Source of the DNA: a virus
Virus record (IMG/VR): IMGVR_UViG_3300010354_000676
Location: 1 to 23,475 of that record
Reading direction: 5' to 3' (one strand)
DNA: 23,475 nt
Under the pieces are notes generated by a model, which saw nothing but the letters and a program-made list of their open reading frames with translations, was not told where the DNA came from and ran no database searches. The stretch's first letter is position 1, and every line of letters begins with the position of its first letter. Positions 4,224 through 19,464 of the stretch are shown one piece after another. The position numbers were made by a program, and so were the translations under genes.

Positions 4224-6485
4224 ATGGGCATCCTCGACATCTTCCGTCGCAAGGCACAGGAGACAGCGGAGCGGTACTTCGAGTCGTCGCTGTCGGTGAT
4301 CGACAAGAGCGGCCGGCCCAAGGCGCAGCCGTTCTCCTACCGCGCGGCGGTCGCTGCGTACCAGTCGTGGATCTACGCGGCGGCGTCGATCAACGCGCAA
4401 GCGGTCGCGTCCGTGCCGCTGCGCCTCTACGTCCGCTCGCGCGCCAACGGGCGCAAGCTCTTCGACACGCGCCCCGTGCCGACCGCCCGTAAGAAATACC
4501 TGCGCGGGGATCTTTCGGTGCAGCCCTCGAGCCTCGTGCGCCGCAAGGCGCTCGCAGGCGACTTCGAGGAGGTGAGCACCGAGCATCCCGTGCTCGAGGT
4601 GCTGCGCAAGGCGAATAGCGTGGACGACGGCTTCGGGCTCGCCATGAGCCGCATCCTGTTCCTTGAGCTCACGGGCAACGCCTATCTCCACCCGGTCATT
4701 GACCCGACGCTCAACGTGCCGACGGAGCTCTGGACGATGCCGAGCCATCTCGTAAAGGTGCTGCCGAGCACGGACGGCCTGATCGCCGGCTACCGCTACG
4801 GCATCGACTCGCAGGCAGAGGTGGACTTCACGCCGGACGAGGTCATCCACTTCAAGCGCCCGAACCCAAAGAGCCTGCTCTACGGGCTCGGCAAGGTGGA
4901 GGCGGCCTGGGGCGTCGTGCAGCAGAATGCCGCCGTGCACGAGATGGACTTGGCCACGTTCGAGAACATGGCGCGCCCGGACTACGCGGTGATCATTAAG
5001 GGCGGCGCCGGCAAGGAGCAGCTCGAGCGGTTCGAGACGAAGATCCGCGAGGCGCTGCAGGGCACCCGCAAGAGCGGCAAGTTCATGGCGATCACGGGCG
5101 ATGTCGAGCTCAAGCCGCTGTCGTTCCCGACGAAGGACTTGGGCGGGCGCGATGAGATCGTCGAGGAGATTGCCGCCATTTTCGGCGTGCCCGTCTCGAT
5201 GCTCAAGGCGAACGATCCCAACCTCGCCGCCGCCAAGAGCGGCTACGCGCAGTGGCGCGAGAGCACCATCGCCCCGATCTGTCGGCTCGACGAGGAGACG
5301 CTCAACGCGAAGCTCCTGCCGCTGTTCGGGATCGAGGACGACGCCTACCTCGCGTACGACAACCCCGTCCCAGCCGACCGCCAGCAGGATCTCGTGGAGC
5401 GGCAGACGTCCGTCGCCGGCGGATGGCTCACCCCCAATGAGGCGCGCATCGAGGCGGGCTACGAGCCCTTCGACGATGACTCGGCAGATCGGCTCTACGT
5501 CAACGGACAGCCGCTAGGAGGCGCTGTGGGCGGCTTCTCGCTCGGAGGCGGCTTCGGGGCAGGCGCACCGCAGCCTGCCGCTAGCGAGGCTGCTGCGCCC
5601 CTCAACGGCGCGCAGATCCAGAGCGCCAACGACATCCTCCTTGGCGTTAGCGCTGGCACGGTCGCGCCCGCTGCGGCTATCGCCCTTATCCAAGCGCTCG
5701 GCGTCAGTCGGCAGCAAGCCGAGATCATGGTGCGAGCTCAATCGGGAATCGAGCTCCCGACGTCGGCGGTGCTTTCCGAAGCGGCGGTGCCCGGAGCCAA
5801 GCGGCTCGCGCTGCCCGCCGCCAAGCAAGACGACTGCGTGAGCGACAAGATCCGCACGCTGCTCGACGAGGGCTACCCGCGCGAGCAGGCAATCGCCATC
5901 GCCATCTCCATGTGCGAGGGCAAGGCGTGGCGCGACGCGGACCCCGCGAAGGCGGTCGGCGACGTGGACACGCGACCGACCGAGGAGATGGCACGGCTCG
6001 CCGCGCGTGGGCTGGAACTGCGCGCCGAGTTCAACCGGGGCGGTACGGAGGTCGGCGTGGCACGCGCACGCGACATCTCCAACCGCGCCAACCTCTCCGA
6101 GGAGACGATCCGGCGCATGGCGTCGTACTTCAGCCGTCACCGAGTTGACCTTGACGCCGAGGGCGCGCGACCCGGCGAGGACGGCTACCCGAGCGCAGGC
6201 GCGATCGCGTGGATGCTGTGGGGCGGCGACCCCAATGACCCCGATTCGGCAGGTGCGGCGTGGGCGAAGCGCAAGCAGGACGAGATCGACCGCGCGCGCG
6301 AGAAGTCGGCGACCCGTACGGCCATCGCCGAGTACGTGGCGCTGGTGGACGGGCGCGACGAGGCGAGCGACCGCAAGGCCATCGACACGCTGCTAGCGAC
6401 AGTCACCAAGAGCCTTGACCCCGTAGCGGTCAGCAACGCCAAGATGCTGGATTACCTTCTCAACGACGAGGACACGACCAAGTGA
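4224..6485 (+). CDS. Portal protein with long C-terminal extension
   Basis: The first 430 or so residues match the HK97-type portal: an opening Met-Gly-Ile-Leu-Asp-Ile-Phe, the Trp-Ile-Tyr-Ala-Ala-Ala-Ser-Ile-Asn region near 49-57, Gly-Asn-Ala-Tyr, and a Phe-Gly-Val-Pro-Val-Ser-Met-Leu segment. Portals form the dodecameric ring at one capsid vertex through which DNA passes. At 753 residues the protein is far longer than the usual 400-550. The extra part holds a Gly-rich linker (about 430-455), a helical module starting Leu-Asn-Gly-Ala-Gln (about 458-510), a Cys-containing helical segment (about 537-565), and a module with Arg-Gly-Leu-Glu and Trp-Met-Leu-Trp-Gly-Gly-Asp (about 593-680). I have seen the last module in other phage head proteins, but its role is unclear to me. 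The start follows the terminase stop by 4 bp. Confidence 0.9.
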
Positions 6486-8170
6486 GCGACACGAACCAGA
6501 CGCCCGAGGTGAACGCAACGCTTCTCGCTGCGGTGCTAGCGAAGAAGGCAGCGGAGCGCGCCGAGCGCGCGCGGCTCGCAGCCGACAACGCGCAGGAGTT
6601 CGCTGCGGAGGCGCAGAAGGCGCTGACCACGATCAAGGTGGGGCCAGTCGGTCCCGTGGGTCCGCAGGGTCCGCAGGGCGAGCAGGGTCCGCCCGGACGC
6701 GACGGCGCAGACGGTCAGAGCATCGTGGGTCCGCAGGGACCGAAGGGCGACAAGGGCGACAAGGGCGACCAAGGCGAGAAGGGCGAACCCGGCGAGAGGG
6801 GCGCACGCGGTCCAGCAGGTCCGCGCGGTCCAGCAGGCAGCGGTGGCGCGCCTGTTCTCGTCAATCCCGAGTTTGAGACGCTGGGCGTGCGCGGCGCTGC
6901 GCGGTTCAACGACGGCGTGACGGCGAGCGGCGCAGTCAATGTCACTGGAGCAGCGACGTTCACGGGCGGCGCAACGGTGCGACCGAACGCGAGCGCGCCA
7001 ACGAGCAACGTGGTGCTAGGGCCGAGCGCAGGGATAGCACTTGGAACAGGAGCCACAGACAACGTATTCATCGGTTTGCGTGCCGGAGATTCGCAGGTCA
7101 GCGGAGATCAGTGCATTGCGATCGGAACCGATGCGCTGCAATCTGAAACGCAGTACAGCCGAAAGATCGCCATTGGGCAAGCGGCACTAGCCGCAGATAC
7201 TTCAAACTCCGGAACAACCTCGGCGAATGTCGCAATTGGCGCATTGGCGCTTACAACGACAACTGGAGCCGGACAGACTGCAGTGGGAGACGCATCATTG
7301 CGCCGCGTCAGCACTGGCACGGGCAATACCGCTATCGGGTGCTTGAGCGGACACAATATCAACACCGGATCAGCAAATGCTATTGTCGGGCAGGCGGCAA
7401 ATGCGCTGACAACTGGCAGTCACAACGTAATCATCGGATCTGCTGTTCCGGGTTCGATTGATGGTGCTGGACCATCGCTGACAACCGGCTCCGGAAACAT
7501 TCTCATAGGACGCGCAAACTGCGCCGCTGCAGACTCTAACTCCATCGTAATTGCTGGTGGCGTTAGCCCGCTATTTGGATTTGCCATCGGCGACGGCAGC
7601 AATACGACGGTGATCGGGAACACCTCGACCACATCGACGCGCATCCCCGGCGGCAACCTCACGCTCTCCAACGGCAACCTGATCCTCGGGACGAGCGGCA
7701 ACGGCATCGACTTCAGCGCGGACGGCAACGCCGCAGGCATGACGAGCGAACTGCTCGACGACTACGAGGAAGGAACGTGGACGCCGCAGTACACCAACGC
7801 AACGCCTCCGACTACCGCGTACACCATGAACAACATACGCGCGAACTACACTAAGGTCGGTCGCGTGGTGACCCTCAATTTCTACAGCCGCACGAGCAAC
7901 GTAGATACAACTGGCGCATCTGGAGCATTGCAAATCAGCGGCCTTCCGTTCACATCAGCAAGCGATGCAGGCGGAACCGTTGGACTTTGCACATCATGGG
8001 CAGGCGATTTCCCTGCGCATGGTCAGGTCACGCTAAATGCGACTGCTATAACTCTGCGATATCGAGACACATCTGATGGGGCCGATGTGTCGATGGATGC
8101 GGCGGACCTCACGACGGGAGCGGGGAACGCCAACAATCTCATCATGTCCATGACCTACTTCACGACCTAA
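6482..8170 (+). CDS. Fibre protein 1 with collagen-like stalk and beta-helical repeats
   Basis: The GTG start at 6482 overlaps the portal stop. Residues 11-50 form an Ala/Glu-rich helix likely to trimerise; about residues 54-121 are Gly-x-y collagen-like repeats rich in Pro, Lys and Asp; about 170-370 contain repeats of the kind Asn-x-Ala-Ile-Gly-x-x-Ala-Leu, resembling trimeric autotransporter and phage fibre shafts; the C-terminus has the [11 protein letters not shown] head (about residue 424 on) common at fibre tips. This supports an extended trimeric virion fibre that may contact the host surface. It is not clear whether it is attached to head or tail; its place between portal and MuF genes is odd. 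Base composition drops within the repeat region. Confidence 0.85.
6641..6847 (+). repeat. Collagen-like Gly-x-y repeat tract
   Basis: About 22 near-continuous Gly-x-y triplets are coded here, with one interruption around Asp-Gly-Gln-Ser-Ile-Val. The DNA is built of repeated 9-bp units such as GGTCCGCAG and AAGGGCGAC, so length variation by slippage or recombination is likely. Confidence 0.85.
7589..7645 (+). repeat. Fibre module repeat, copy 1
   Basis: This 57-bp segment codes for Gly-Asp-Gly-Ser-Asn-Thr-Thr-Val-Ile followed by a Ser/Thr-rich stretch ending Thr-Arg-Ile. About 47 of 57 bases match 9831-9887 by eye, with no gaps. Confidence 0.75.
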
Positions 8171-8420: not shown

Positions 8421-10067
8421 ATGGCCTCGCGCATCCGCGTCAGGCGAAGCAGCGGCCCGTCCGTCTCGACCGCCACCGCAAAGGTGGTGCCGGGCGAGAT
8501 GCTTGCCGACACCACGGCAGGCACGATGTTCCTCGCGAAGGACGACGGCTCCGTTGTCAAGATGGCGATGGACGCCGATGTAGTAAAACTGACTGGCACG
8601 CAGGCTGTCGCGGGCGCCAAGACGTTCAGCGACATCACGACAATCAGCAACAGCACCGCGAGCAGCAGCACGACGACTGGCGCGCTCGTCGTTAGCGGCG
8701 GCATCGGCGTGGCTGGCGCCGTGCATTCCGGCGCTGACTCGTACTTCAACGGCATTCGCATCGGCAAGGTCGCAGGCACCAACAACACCGTCATAGGCGA
8801 CGCGGCAGGCGCATCGCTCGCATCCGGCGGCAACGAGTCGGTTCTTGTGGGCTATCAGGCCGGGGACGCGATCACCACAGGGGATAACCACGTGGCGGTG
8901 GGCGCAGGTGCGCTATCGGCGATCACCACGAACAGTAATACGGTAGCGGTGGGCTACAACGCGCTTCTTAGGTCTACGGCAGCGGATGTGGTCGCGGTCG
9001 GCTCCGAGGCGCTGGACATCAACACGCTTGGCACCGCAAACGTCGCCGTAGGTCGCTCGGCTCTCGGTGCTGCGACTACGGCAATTGCCACGGTCACAAC
9101 GACAGTCGCAGGCACGGGCGGCACGGACGGCGCGAAGACCGGGATCCAACTTGAGCGCGACAGCGGCGGGACGATGGTGACCTATCCGACCGTCAATCTC
9201 ACTGTGACAGGCGGCGCGGTGAGCGGGACGGTGACAGTTGCCACAGGCGGCAGCGGATCGACAAGCAGCACGGCAGGCGGCATCATCTTCAAGGCAAACG
9301 CGGCAGGCATTACCGCTGGCGTTCCTGCGGATTGGCGCTGCCAGTTGGCGACGGTCAGCACGGCGACAAACAACACGGCAGTCGGGCATCAGGCCGGACT
9401 GTCAATTACAACCGGTTCAGATAACACTTGTATTGGTCGCCAAGCGGGTGATGCTATTACTACTGGCGAATTCAACACGGCACTGAGTGCTGGCGCTTTA
9501 GGAGTCTGCACAACTGGTTCTTACAACGTGGCGCTAGGAACGGCATTAGGCGCGCTTACTACAGGCAATGACAATATGGGGATAGGACTATTGTCGCTGT
9601 CCTCATTGCAAACTGGGGTAAACAACGTATCCGTAGGCAGGCGCTCGTTGCAGAGCCTTACAGGTAGCGCGAGCGGGAATATCGGGATCGGCAATCAGGC
9701 AGGCCGATATCAGGGATCGGGGACGACAGAACTTACAGGCGCGACTAACTCGGTGTTCATTGGCAACACAAGTCGAGCCAACGGCACATCTCAAAGCAAT
9801 CAGGTCGTCATCGCAGGGCTGGACGGGCTAGGCGACGGAAGCAACACGACAGTTATCAACAATTCCTCGACCACCTCGACGCGCATCGCAGGCACGGCGG
9901 CGAGCGTGCTTCGCGTGGACGGCGATACGGTGCGCATCGTCAATGACCGCACCCCGGCAACCGCAGGCGCGGCAGGCAATGAGGGCGACTTCTGCTGGGA
10001 CGCCAATTACCTCTACATCTGCATTGCGGCAAACACATGGAGGCGGGTGGCACATGCAACATGGTGA
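8421..10067 (+). CDS. Fibre protein 2 with beta-helical repeats and an inserted domain
   Basis: This 548-residue virion fibre candidate has an N-terminal module with Val-Pro-Gly-Glu-Met-Leu-Ala (about residues 24-50), then a long array of repeats of the type Gly-Asp-Asn-x-x-x-Gly-x-x-Ala-Gly-x-x-Ile-Thr-Thr-Gly (about 120-215 and 313-470). The array is split by about 95 Thr/Gly/Val-rich residues (about 217-312) that do not follow the repeat. The C-terminus ends in a Gly-Asp-Phe-Cys-Trp ... Trp-Arg-Arg-Val module typical of fibre tips. A 57-bp stretch near the C-terminus is closely related to one in fibre 1. Codon composition becomes more AT-rich in the second repeat block (about nt 9380-9800). 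It has no collagen tract. Confidence 0.82.
   Translation: MASRIRVRRSSGPSVSTATAKVVPGEMLADTTAGTMFLAKDDGSVVKMAMDADVVKLTGTQAVAGAKTFSDITTISNSTASSSTTTGALVVSGGIGVAGAVHSGADSYFNGIRIGKVAGTNNTVIGDAAGASLASGGNESVLVGYQAGDAITTGDNHVAVGAGALSAITTNSNTVAVGYNALLRSTAADVVAVGSEALDINTLGTANVAVGRSALGAATTAIATVTTTVAGTGGTDGAKTGIQLERDSGGTMVTYPTVNLTVTGGAVSGTVTVATGGSGSTSSTAGGIIFKANAAGITAGVPADWRCQLATVSTATNNTAVGHQAGLSITTGSDNTCIGRQAGDAITTGEFNTALSAGALGVCTTGSYNVALGTALGALTTGNDNMGIGLLSLSSLQTGVNNVSVGRRSLQSLTGSASGNIGIGNQAGRYQGSGTTELTGATNSVFIGNTSRANGTSQSNQVVIAGLDGLGDGSNTTVINNSSTTSTRIAGTAASVLRVDGDTVRIVNDRTPATAGAAGNEGDFCWDANYLYICIAANTWRRVAHATW
9831..9887 (+). repeat. Fibre module repeat, copy 2
   Basis: Counterpart of 7589-7645 in the second fibre gene, at the junction between the repeat array and the C-terminal tip. 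Most differences are in third codon positions plus a Gly-to-Asn change. Confidence 0.75.
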
Positions 10068-13997: not shown

Positions 13998-14029
13998 ACG
14001 CAGGGGCGGCCTTCGGGTCGCCCCTGTGT
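13998..14029 (+). terminator. Strong UUCG hairpin terminator after the capsid unit
   Basis: The arms 13998-14011 and 14016-14029 form a 14-bp stem with G-U pairs at two positions and an exceptionally stable TTCG tetraloop (14012-14015). The sequence after it (CATTGG) has little T, so efficiency is uncertain. It ends the capsid unit just before the next promoter element. Confidence 0.7.
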
Positions 14030-14040
14030 CATTGGTGCGG

Positions 14041-14052
14041 TATCGTCCGCGC
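14041..14052 (+). promoter_or_regulatory. Late-type -10 element TATCGT before a probable leaderless start
   Basis: TATCGT (14041-14046) lies 6 nt before ATG 14053, directly after the UUCG hairpin. No Shine-Dalgarno sequence is present between hairpin and ATG. TGTGTC ends 10 nt upstream of the hexamer. Confidence 0.6.
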
Positions 14053-15231
14053 ATGCTCAAGCTCGATCTCGGTGCAGGACGCACCCGCATTCCCGGCTAC
14101 ACGCCAATCGACGCAGCGATGGGACATGACGTCCGCGCGCTGCCATTCGCATCCAACGTCGCGGATGAGATCCGCGCGAGTCACGTACTCGAGCACATCC
14201 CGTTCCCGGAGGCGCGGCAGGTGCTCAAGCACTGGGTCGACGTCCTCAAGCCGGGCGGATGGCTCAAGGTCGCAGTCCCGAACTTCGACCTCATCGTCAA
14301 GTGGTACACCGAGGGTCGCGGCAGCGAGCTGAACCTCGAGGGGATGCTCATGGGCGGGCACTCCGACCACAACGATGCGCACCATGCGATCTACCAGATG
14401 CAGAAGCTCGAGGGGCTGCTCAAGGAGGCGGGGCTCGAGGACATCTGCCCGTGGGAAGGCGACGCGGACGACTGCTCACGGCATCCCGTGACGCTGAACC
14501 TCAAGGGACGCAAGCCGCACAAGCAGGTACCCGCAGAACTGCCCACGTACGACGACATGCACCTCGTGCAGACATGCCCGCGCCTTGGATTCACAGACCA
14601 CATGTACTGCGCGGCGATCGCCACCAAGTCGCTGGGCATCAACCTGACTCGGCACACTGGCGTCTTCTGGACGCAGGGCATCGACCGCGTGCTGTCCGAG
14701 GCGTCGCGCAACGACAAGCTCAAGTGGATCATCACGACCGACTACGACACGCTCTTCTGCGCCGAGGACATCGTGCGCATGCGCGAGATCGCCGAGCGCA
14801 TGGATCTGGACATTCTCGCGCCGATGCAGGCGGGACGCGAGCGCACCTCGCCGCTGCTGACGATGCGCGACGAGAACGGCAACCTCAAGACGGGCGTCCT
14901 GTCCACCGAGCTCGAGAAGGACGCCATTCAGGTCGCGACCGCGCACTTCGGGCTCACGCTGATCCGCCGCGAGGCGCTGCTCAAGGTCGAGCGCCCGTGG
15001 TTCGTCGGCGTGCCGGCGCCGGACGGGACTTGGGGCGAGGGCAGGGTCGACGACGACATCACCTTCTGGCGCCAGTGGGAGAAGGCCGGGCTCAAGGCGT
15101 GGCTCACGCCGAAGGTGCAGGTCGGGCACGCGGAGCTCGTGGTCGCGTGGGTCGACCGCGACCTGCGCCGGCAGTGGCAGTCCACGAGCGAGTACTACGC
15201 GCAGGGCAAGCCGTGGTACGCACGCTCCTAA
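14053..15231 (+). CDS. Fused SAM methyltransferase and glycosyltransferase-like protein
   Basis: Two enzyme domains are visible in 392 residues. Residues 1-155 look like a class I S-adenosylmethionine methyltransferase: Leu-Asp-Leu-Gly-Ala-Gly (4-9), acidic Asp20 after the second strand, Asp-Val-Arg-Ala-Leu-Pro-Phe (26-32), His-Val-Leu-Glu-His (44-48) and Leu-Lys-Pro-Gly-Gly (65-69). Residues 165-392 look like a GT-A glycosyltransferase: Thr-Thr-Asp230-Tyr-Asp232 as the metal/nucleotide-sugar DxD motif, Asp-Asp-Asp-Ile (333-336) and His359. The target is unknown; position suggests modification of virion proteins or of a sugar on them. The start at 14053 is set by the TATCGT element 6 nt upstream. 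The stop codon (15229-15231) is part of the next promoter element. Confidence 0.8.
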   Translation: MLKLDLGAGRTRIPGYTPIDAAMGHDVRALPFASNVADEIRASHVLEHIPFPEARQVLKHWVDVLKPGGWLKVAVPNFDLIVKWYTEGRGSELNLEGMLMGGHSDHNDAHHAIYQMQKLEGLLKEAGLEDICPWEGDADDCSRHPVTLNLKGRKPHKQVPAELPTYDDMHLVQTCPRLGFTDHMYCAAIATKSLGINLTRHTGVFWTQGIDRVLSEASRNDKLKWIITTDYDTLFCAEDIVRMREIAERMDLDILAPMQAGRERTSPLLTMRDENGNLKTGVLSTELEKDAIQVATAHFGLTLIRREALLKVERPWFVGVPAPDGTWGEGRVDDDITFWRQWEKAGLKAWLTPKVQVGHAELVVAWVDRDLRRQWQSTSEYYAQGKPWYARS

Positions 15232-17116: not shown

Positions 17117-17529
17117 AGCCAATAGCCGCCGCCATCCACACGAAGCTCGGGAGCGCGACGGGCGCAGGATCCTTCCATGCGCTTCTGGGCGGTCGGTACT
17201 ACCACGTTGAGGCGCCGCAGAACACCGCCTTCCCGCTCGCCGTCTGGACGCTTGACGCGGTCGACAATGACGACCAGTTCGGCGGCTCGCGAATACTGCG
17301 CGGGACGCTGACCTTTGACATCTACTGCGAGGGCAAGGCAGGCGCGGCGGCTGCAATGGACATCGAGGAAGCGCTCTACGCGCTGCTCGACCAGCAGGCG
17401 CTTGCGGTCAGCGGAGGCACGTACGGCAATGTCACGCTGCAGTGCATCTCGCGCGGTCTACCATCTGCGACAGACGAGTTCATGGTCATGAGCACCACCT
17501 ACAGCATCTTCACCACGAGGGTCGCCTAA
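17113..17529 (+). CDS. Tail terminator protein (gp11 / DUF3168-like)
   Basis: The 138-residue protein matches the small alpha/beta tail terminator family: an N-terminal helix (Met-Lys-Pro-Ile-Ala-Ala-Ala-Ile), a Pro-Leu-Ala-Val-Trp strand (about 40-45), Phe-Asp-Ile-Tyr-Cys-Glu-Gly followed by an Ala-rich helix ending Glu-Glu-Ala-Leu-Tyr-Ala-Leu-Leu, and a final beta strand before Thr-Arg-Val. It caps the tail tube and joins it to the head. The ATG overlaps the previous stop (ATGA) and the stop overlaps the next ATG (TAATG). Length is typical. Confidence 0.85.
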   Translation: MKPIAAAIHTKLGSATGAGSFHALLGGRYYHVEAPQNTAFPLAVWTLDAVDNDDQFGGSRILRGTLTFDIYCEGKAGAAAAMDIEEALYALLDQQALAVSGGTYGNVTLQCISRGLPSATDEFMVMSTTYSIFTTRVA

Positions 17530-17936
17530 TGGCAGCAATCAGCGGCAATACGGGCAACGTCAGCGGCAACGGCATCGTCGGCAACCTGAACACATGGAGC
17601 GCGACGATCTCGCGCGCCGTGTCTGACGTCACCGGATTCAACAACAGCGGCCGCAACCGAATCCTCGGCGTCTATGACCTCACCGGCAGCGCCGGCGGCA
17701 TCATGGACGACGGGTCAAGCCTGCTGTCGAGCAGTAATTTCGCGGCGTTCACCTCAGCGACCGGCGCCAACGTGATCCTCACGGCCGACAGCGGCAACGC
17801 GATCACGGCCGCCTGCGTCGTGTCCGACATCGCACTCGGGTCAAGCAAGGCCGGCGACGCGACGATCACATTTTCCTTCAGTCTCGCCTCGACGGTGACG
17901 ACAGGGACGCTGCCCTTCACGATCGCCTGGTCGTGA
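17529..17936 (+). CDS. Major tail tube protein
   Basis: The 135-residue product starts with the Gly-Asn-x-Gly-Asn-Val ... Gly-Asn-Leu-Asn-Thr-Trp-Ser-Ala-Thr-Ile pattern that opens small tail tube proteins, followed by Gly-Arg-Asn-Arg and alternating beta strands, with a beta-rich C-terminus. It would assemble as stacked hexameric rings around the tape measure. The gene lies directly after the tail terminator and before the tail assembly chaperones, as in lambda-like tails. GAGG is about 9 nt before the ATG. There is no extra Ig-like C-terminal domain. Confidence 0.8.
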   Translation: MAAISGNTGNVSGNGIVGNLNTWSATISRAVSDVTGFNNSGRNRILGVYDLTGSAGGIMDDGSSLLSSSNFAAFTSATGANVILTADSGNAITAACVVSDIALGSSKAGDATITFSFSLASTVTTGTLPFTIAWS

Positions 17937-17940
17937 CGCC

Positions 17941-18225
17941 ATGAGCAGGAGAGAGCCGACAGTCGTAGGGCTGCCGATTCCGGGATTTGCCGTCGCCGGC
18001 ATCACGACATCCGAGGACGACTGGGTCGTCACAGGCTCCTACCGCGGCGCGCCGTTCCGCAAGTACGTCACGCCGAACATCGACGCCGAGCATGCGATGC
18101 GCACAGCAGTTGCCGTGCTCGGGTTCGATCCCTCGGGCATCGAGTGGATACGCGCCGACCGGAGGCGCGATGTCGAGCACTGCGTGCGCCTCGATGGCGA
18201 TTGGCTACGATCGCGCGCACTATGA
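17941..18225 (+). CDS. Hypothetical protein, 94 aa
   Basis: Lies between the tail tube gene and the chaperone pair and overlaps the latter by ATGA (18222-18225). The protein has a beta-rich N-terminal half, with Trp-Val-Val-Thr-Gly-Ser-Tyr-Arg-Gly-Ala-Pro-Phe near 28-39, a helix with Ala-Met-Arg-Thr-Ala-Val near 52-60 and a charged Arg-rich C-terminus. I do not recognise the family. Its place would fit a tail assembly or tube-associated role. No clear Shine-Dalgarno sequence precedes the ATG, suggesting re-initiation after the tube gene 4 bp upstream. Confidence 0.6.
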   Translation: MSRREPTVVGLPIPGFAVAGITTSEDDWVVTGSYRGAPFRKYVTPNIDAEHAMRTAVAVLGFDPSGIEWIRADRRRDVEHCVRLDGDWLRSRAL

Positions 18226-18605
18226 GGGCTCCGCTCACCATCGGCTCGCTGACGCTGCGCTTCCTGACGCTGCGCGACTGGAATGACCTCACCATGCGGT
18301 GGCTTGCTGCGCGCCAGCAGGAGCACGAACAGGCGCTTCGCCGGTCGGGCGCAGGCCCGGCGGACATCGCGCGGGCGGTGCAGGAGTATGCGGACAGGCG
18401 CAGCGCCTACGCGCTCCTGCTCGAGATGTGCAAGACCTTCGACGGAGCGTGCATGATCCTCGAGCGCTCCGCGCAGAACGCCGGCATCGAGCGCGACCAC
18501 CTGCATGCGGCGATGGAGGGGCTCGACCCCGACGCCGTGGCGATCCTTGCCATGCGCGCGTGCGGATGGGAGATACGTCCGCAGGGCGAATCGGGAAACG
18601 CCTAG
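18222..18605 (+). CDS. Tail assembly chaperone, short (G-like) form
   Basis: The 127-residue helical protein is the zero-frame product in the classic slot before the tape measure gene. It starts with a small beta part (Ile-Gly-Ser-Leu-Thr-Leu-Arg-Phe-Leu) and is then all helix, with many Ala, Arg, Glu and Cys at 67, 75 and 116. By analogy with lambda gpG it should bind the tape measure protein during tail assembly and not enter the virion. The last codons before its TAG stop hold a slippery heptamer that lets some ribosomes make the longer form. Alternative: two unrelated overlapping genes, which the frameshift signal makes unlikely. Confidence 0.8.
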   Translation: MRAPLTIGSLTLRFLTLRDWNDLTMRWLAARQQEHEQALRRSGAGPADIARAVQEYADRRSAYALLLEMCKTFDGACMILERSAQNAGIERDHLHAAMEGLDPDAVAILAMRACGWEIRPQGESGNA

Positions 18606-18817
18606 AGCCGCCGTCCGACGAGGACTGGCGGCGGCACATCGCGCTCGTCGCGCGCTACCTGCCGGGATTCGGGAATCCGCTTGACATGACGCTGCCTGAG
18701 CTGGAGGGCTGGGCGGACGCGCTCGCGCACATCCTCGAGCGCGAGAACGGGACGTCCGGGGACGCCGTTGACCATCGCGCTAGAGTAGAGGCTGAGATGC
18801 GGAGACTCCACGGATGA
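18222..18817 (+). CDS. Tail assembly chaperone, long (GT-like) form by -1 frameshift
   Basis: Reading 18222-18599 and then, after a one-base backward shift, 18599-18817 gives a 198-residue fusion: 126 residues shared with the short form plus 72 new ones. The added part is helical, with Trp-Arg-Arg-His, Leu-Pro-Gly-Phe-Gly-Asn-Pro-Leu and Leu-Glu-Gly-Trp-Ala-Asp. The second frame has no good start codon of its own near 18599, which supports shifting. In lambda the GT form links the tape measure to tube subunits. The final stop overlaps the ATG of the tape measure-like gene. Confidence 0.82.
18593..18632 (+). promoter_or_regulatory. Programmed -1 frameshift signal: slippery site plus hairpin
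   Basis: GGGAAAC at 18593-18599 is in the right phase (G GGA AAC) for simultaneous slippage of two tRNAs. The zero-frame stop TAG is at 18603-18605. After a 7-nt spacer, GCCGCCGTCC (18607-18616) pairs with GGAC and GGCGGC (18622-18625 and 18627-18632) around a GACGA loop with one bulged T, a stimulatory hairpin at the classic distance. Lambda uses the related GGGAAAG at the same place in its tail genes. Confidence 0.87.
18769..18786 (+). promoter_or_regulatory. Possible internal promoter TGAC-N8-TAGAGT
   Basis: TGAC (18769-18772), 8 nt, then TAGAGT (18781-18786) repeats the exact arrangement found at 1078-1095. It lies within the end of the chaperone gene and uses rare-looking codons there (AGA, GTA). 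If active it would transcribe the tape measure-like gene, whose ATG is 27 nt further on. Confidence 0.25.
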
Positions 18818-19464
18818 GCATGGCAGGGAATCCCTCGCTGATCGTTGATGTGGTCGCCAACAACGCGCAGCTCGGCAATGGCCTTCGTGCCGCCGAAGCA
18901 CAGGTGACCGCATCGGCATCGAGAATGGGCACGCTTGTCGATGCCCAGATGGGCAAGTTCGGCTCGCAGCTCGTCGGCACGCTCTCTCGCGGATTGAGCG
19001 CCATGATGGCGATACAGGCTGCGGATGCCGCCATCCGCGCCACGACGGAAGCCTTCAGGAACAACCGGGACATACCCGACGCGATCCTCGAGTCGATGCA
19101 GAGGACGTTCTCGTCGGTGCCCATCTTCGGCGCCATACAGGATGCGCTAATACCGCTCGGCGAAAGGCTCGGCACCTCGATCGCGCAGAGCGCCGTAGGC
19201 GTCATGCAGCGCGAGTTCGGGATGTTCGCCGGCATGACGTTCTCTGATCGCGGGAACGAGCCGCTCATCGCCGAGAGGACTGCCGAGCTCGAGCGCCTGC
19301 GCCGGCAGGCGAGCATGGCAAGCGTCGAGACGGTAGATACGGCGATCGGTCGCTTCCGCGTCGCCACGGACACGGACAAGGCGCAGCAGGAGCAGGTGGA
19401 GATCCTGCGCCGCATCGAGTCGATCATGCAGGAGCTCGGCATGCAGGTGAAGGGCGCAAACTGA
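18814..19464 (+). CDS. Very short tape measure-like protein
   Basis: The gene directly after the chaperone pair is normally the tape measure. The 216-residue product starts like one (Leu-Ile-Val-Asp-Val-Val-Ala-Asn-Asn-Ala-Gln-Leu, then a helix of Ala/Gln/Ser), has a hydrophobic stretch (about 55-85) and a moderately hydrophobic Gly/Phe/Met region (about 95-150), and ends in a coiled coil (about 150-212). Tape measures generally run 600 to over 2,000 residues, with tail length proportional at about 0.15 nm per residue; this one would set a tail near 30 nm. It could instead be a different core or pilot protein. The ATG overlaps the previous stop (ATGA). Confidence 0.6.
   Translation: MSMAGNPSLIVDVVANNAQLGNGLRAAEAQVTASASRMGTLVDAQMGKFGSQLVGTLSRGLSAMMAIQAADAAIRATTEAFRNNRDIPDAILESMQRTFSSVPIFGAIQDALIPLGERLGTSIAQSAVGVMQREFGMFAGMTFSDRGNEPLIAERTAELERLRRQASMASVETVDTAIGRFRVATDTDKAQQEQVEILRRIESIMQELGMQVKGAN

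Follow-up and report, generated by a model that had tools for sequence, protein, structure and literature searches.

Genes and features of the locus

The window analysed here, by which we mean the whole stretch of 23,475 nt, comprises positions 1 to 23,475 of the IMG/VR virus record IMGVR_UViG_3300010354_000676, a metagenomic contig from an uncultured phage. It carries a head and tail module with terminase, portal, minor head protein, protease, major head protein, adaptor and connector genes, and it also encodes a tail completion gp17-like protein. Within this module, a major tail protein candidate (17529-17936; phrog_9522 major tail protein, E 3.6e-4) is followed by a small gene (17941-18225) and then by a 127-aa frame running from ATG to TAG at 18222-18605, here called G, which is the candidate zero-frame product of a pre-tape-measure tail assembly chaperone gene and was aligned with 18 relatives. 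At the end of G lie a slippery heptamer, G_GGA_AAC (18593-18599), the zero-frame stop TAG (18603-18605) and, after it, a candidate stimulatory hairpin (18607-18632). The -1 frame past the heptamer, called T (18599-18817), runs for 72 residues up to the tape measure ATG, as an earlier note on this DNA had stated; its TGA overlaps that ATG (as ATGA), which opens a tape measure protein candidate of 216 aa at 18814-19464, and fusion of G and T would give a protein of ~198 aa. The G/T site is thus placed between the major tail protein candidate and the tape measure candidate, both weakly identified by profile; these two genes, G, T, the heptamer, the stop and the hairpin are all on the + strand.

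Elsewhere in the window, two fibre-like genes with GNTAIG/GNNAIG-like repeat motifs lie between the portal and capsid genes; the one at 6482-8170 includes a run of Gly-X-Y triplets like that of collagen (Pfam Collagen, E 2.4e-8), and the one at 8421-10067 a BppL_N-like match slightly below cut-off. Flanked by head genes on one side and connector genes on the other, 14026-15231 lies within the structural module and encodes a protein that begins with a methyltransferase domain (Pfam E 7.6e-8) and whose second half is without a Pfam match. At the left window end, 121-1080 encodes a calcineurin-like metallophosphoesterase, right at the Pfam cut-off.

In the AlphaFold models, G is small, largely helical and confidently folded (mean pLDDT 89), and T has three helices, predicted with lower confidence (mean pLDDT 78.5). 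PHROGs and Pfam held nothing usable for G, T or the tape measure candidate, and neither a PDB sequence search nor a fold search against solved structures gave a match for G; against BFVD, G had one match below E 0.001, to an uncharacterised protein of an uncultured phage (E 3.5e-5). We therefore name the chaperone and tape measure candidates from gene order, architecture and conservation, as neither G nor T has a match among annotated families. In relatives the tape measure candidate, at 215-383 aa, is conserved at its N- and C-terminal ends and variable in length in between, as tape measure proteins are expected to be. Its position, length and conservation pattern make 18814-19464 a tape measure candidate; the tape measure PHROG was matched by one relative at E 0.027 only. 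Tail length usually follows a rule of about 1.5 angstrom per tape measure residue, by which this very short candidate (216 aa) would correspond to a tail of roughly 30 nm.

The slippery heptamer and its conservation

In the zero frame G ends TCG GGA AAC GCC TAG, and it is because of these codons that GGGAAAC is read as an in-phase X_XXY_YYZ heptamer, 3 nt before the stop, in agreement with the phase and distance given in the earlier note. This is the sole copy of GGGAAAC in the window, where ~1.2 copies are expected, so that the motif alone is within chance. In-phase XXXYYYZ heptamers occur at ~0.0008 per codon (six in the ~7,500 codons of the window's listed genes), and only one of the six, namely GGGAAAC at 18593-18599, is near a gene end. 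The position of the heptamer exceeds chance; its conservation among relatives is the stronger argument and settles the matter.

Relatives were collected from IMG/VR, with G, T and alignments of each as queries. This gave 23 contigs of a close family, from several samples, which reduce to 17 distinct rows including the window. All 23 have the heptamer in phase, as GGGAAAC or, in one lineage, GGGAAAA, which bears out the expectation that the slippery site would be conserved; the stop of G lies 0-3 nt past it in 17 of 17 rows. A search for relatives in which the two frames are unlinked found none. More distant contigs, whose T is 38-52% identical to that of the window, also retain in-phase heptamers: GGGAAAG in L046, CCCAAAA in L045, and GGGAAAC in L047-L053 and L074. 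In the GTDB genomes searched, G and T had no host or prophage relatives, and in the GenBank phages searched there were none of G or of the tape measure candidate.

The window comes from metagenomic data, and one gene could be thought to have been split into two frames by a mistake in assembly or sequencing. The 23 related contigs, which stem from several samples, have the identical split, as do more distant phages, and the relatives refute this explanation so completely that its probability is practically nil.

The change of substitution frame around the heptamer

Substitution patterns give a separate view of which frame is translated. In an alignment of 15 sequences, substitutions in G fall mostly at zero-frame position 3 (0.46 vs 0.25 and 0.18), while past the heptamer they fall mostly at zero-frame position 2, which is position 3 of the -1 frame (0.44 vs 0.21/0.30). 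The third-position bias thus swaps frame around the heptamer, and from this it follows that both frames are coding and that the frame changes in this region.

An alternative is that T is a gene in its own right, reached by re-initiation or through a start codon of T lying in the overlap, and that the heptamer is incidental. In its favour, the -1 frame of the window can be read without a stop from the GTG at 18299, and L046 has a GTG that overlaps both the G stop and the heptamer, at which T of that contig could in principle start. The upstream opening of the -1 frame is, however, not a constant feature, as it extends for 57 nt in L023, 24 nt in L045 and only 3 nt in L046, and the overlap of G and T evolves in the frame of G, with substitutions upstream of the heptamer following that frame. 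In T itself the first ATG, GTG or TTG is at residue 30, and the best conserved stretch (PPSDEDW...ARYLPG) lies upstream of it, within residues 4-27; independent initiation is therefore a poor explanation. A separate T gene would also leave both the invariant heptamer and the hairpin unexplained, and we regard it as highly improbable.

The downstream hairpin

The earlier note had described a 10-bp bulged hairpin beginning 7 nt after the heptamer, and such a structure was recovered at 18607-18632. Positions 18607-18616 pair with 18622-18625 and 18627-18632, giving 10 bp (a 6-bp GCCGCC/GGCGGC clamp plus 4 bp) around a 5-nt loop, GACGA, with a bulged U18626. The fold has -20.3 kcal/mol, with a z of -3.5 vs dinucleotide shuffles. 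A contribution from a longer downstream structure was considered and rejected, the 81-nt fold being ordinary (z -0.95), as was an upstream Shine-Dalgarno-like stimulator, for which purine-rich stretches are present in some rows and, judged by eye, are not conserved. An Rfam scan gave no match.

In the close relatives the hairpin keeps its spacing from the heptamer. Across the 17-row alignment 96.5% of the cells are paired, vs 25-62% after shifting the 3' arm by 1-3 columns, and the covariation score of 0.102 compares with 0.052 in shuffles, none of 500 of which reached it, with the caveat that related sequences may beat shuffles through common descent. Two pairs of the upper stem have changed on both sides, from C-G to A-U and from G-C to U-A. 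Such both-side changes amount to 3 cells only, and seven of the ten stem pairs show no variation at all, so that these seven are uninformative by covariation.

This invariance is also what one would see if the hairpin had arisen only as a by-product, from GC-rich codons and the conserved protein motif PPSDEDWRR, with slippage brought about by the heptamer alone; the amino acids of the lower stem (P, P, W and R) are invariant as well. Codon choice and the variable positions argue otherwise. When the codons of T were resampled synonymously, the real fold was stronger than the resampled mean in 17 of 17 rows (z -1.4 to -3.9, the window itself having -3.9). The lower-stem codons CCG and CGG are each fixed in 17/17 rows, while other Pro and Arg codons of T vary. 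Changes in the Ser and Glu codons are coupled (TCA...GAT) and preserve the pair, and in two relatives (L009 and L037) Asp is replaced by Gly and yet the stem re-forms, now without a bulge. We therefore consider a by-product quite unlikely, and favour a hairpin that is maintained for its structure: it is a stable and structurally conserved stem 7 nt past the heptamer, within the spacing of about 5-9 nt of hairpin-stimulated -1 frameshifting.

Together, the heptamer and the stem clamp make a pattern that can be searched for. When IMG/VR was scanned for exact occurrences of GGGAAA, 8 nt, GCCGCC, 12-16 nt and GGCGGC, 56 contigs were returned, and 24 of these had the frameshift layout, namely all 23 of the known contigs plus L074; the remaining contigs lack the layout and look like chance matches. 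L074 is a divergent phage contig of 33.7 kb, with GGGAAAC and the GCCGCC/GGCGGC hairpin laid out at L074:1919-1956, a T domain that is 40% identical, and the T motif ARxxPGLGNPLDL. In L046, a distant relative, no hairpin of this kind follows the heptamer.

Proposed mechanism

The architecture, the conservation of the in-phase heptamer, the hairpin with its compensatory changes and the switch in substitution frame all directly support a -1 frameshift. The relatives strongly support the central reading of the earlier note, a chaperone gene with a -1 frameshift and a hairpin that stimulates it, and we suggest with very high confidence that in this uncultured phage family the pre-tape-measure chaperone gene undergoes programmed -1 frameshifting of the lambda G/GT type. 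That ribosomes slip in vivo, how often they would do so and that the products serve as chaperones are inferred. Most ribosomes would read G to its TAG. A smaller share of them, carrying tRNA-Gly and tRNA-Asn on GGA AAC while the stem of the hairpin sits at the mRNA entrance, would slip back by one base to GGG AAA; reading would resume with CGC CTA GAG..., giving a GT fusion with the junction Ser-Gly-Asn-Arg-Leu-Glu. G and GT, made in unequal amounts, would then serve the tape measure protein, whose gene comes directly after, as chaperones of tail assembly, with T probably recruiting the tail tube protein. For annotation of this family this amounts to a correction, as gene callers would miss or split GT.

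Comparison with known systems

A -1 frameshift that yields two versions of a tail helper protein is well known from phage lambda and many tailed phages. In the lambda G/GT type, GT is produced in a low and fixed proportion to G, the tape measure protein is bound by G and the tail tube protein by T. Like lambda, the locus described here has a GGGAAA-type heptamer in phase close to where G ends, a -1 extension T, and the gene order tail tube - G/T - tape measure. It differs in that the heptamer ends in C, where that of lambda ends in G, in the distance from heptamer to stop (3 nt here, 15 nt in lambda), and in having no family-level sequence match to annotated chaperones. As the earlier note had held, the lambda site has less downstream structure: the 42 nt downstream fold with -6.6 kcal/mol in lambda vs -23.7 kcal/mol here, though the two also differ in GC content. 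The lambda G/GT frameshift (Levin 1993; Xu 2004) is reviewed in PMC5009743, and -1 frameshifting in G/T is conserved across long-tailed phages despite low sequence similarity (PMC5009743).

The suggestion that the present site is a particularly efficient version is unsupported, as efficiency cannot be read from sequence, and in E. coli heptamers ending in AAC slip much less than those ending in AAG (Atkins et al. 2016, PMC5009743). The strong hairpin may offset the weaker A-site codon. One could also speculate that the state of the host Asn tRNA lets AAC slip well, with a GT:G ratio far above that of lambda that would suit the very short tail (tape measure of ~216 aa), an idea we hold to be rather unlikely.

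The same heptamer has been described in other phage groups. Frameshifts at GGGAAAC ahead of the tape measure gene are predicted for Caulobacter phage Colossus (PMC3556154) and for the haloarchaeal virus HCTV-1 (PMC5009743). In Burkholderia phage KL1, gp18/gp19 have a predicted GGGAAAC directly upstream of the G stop and a possible downstream stem-loop (PMC3483164); the locus in the window is alike in having GGGAAAC just before the stop of G and a candidate stem-loop after it. It differs from KL1 in that the KL1 stop abuts the heptamer (3 nt here), that the KL1 structure is weak (-5.8 kcal/mol over 42 nt), and that KL1 has an extra gene ahead of its tape measure gene. Because the arrangement, and even the GGGAAAC heptamer, have already been published for other phages, a claim of novelty would be unsupported. 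The finding is solid but ordinary, and opens no new question by itself; to the known systems it adds a well-supported case of tail-chaperone frameshifting with a hairpin that is backed by covariation.
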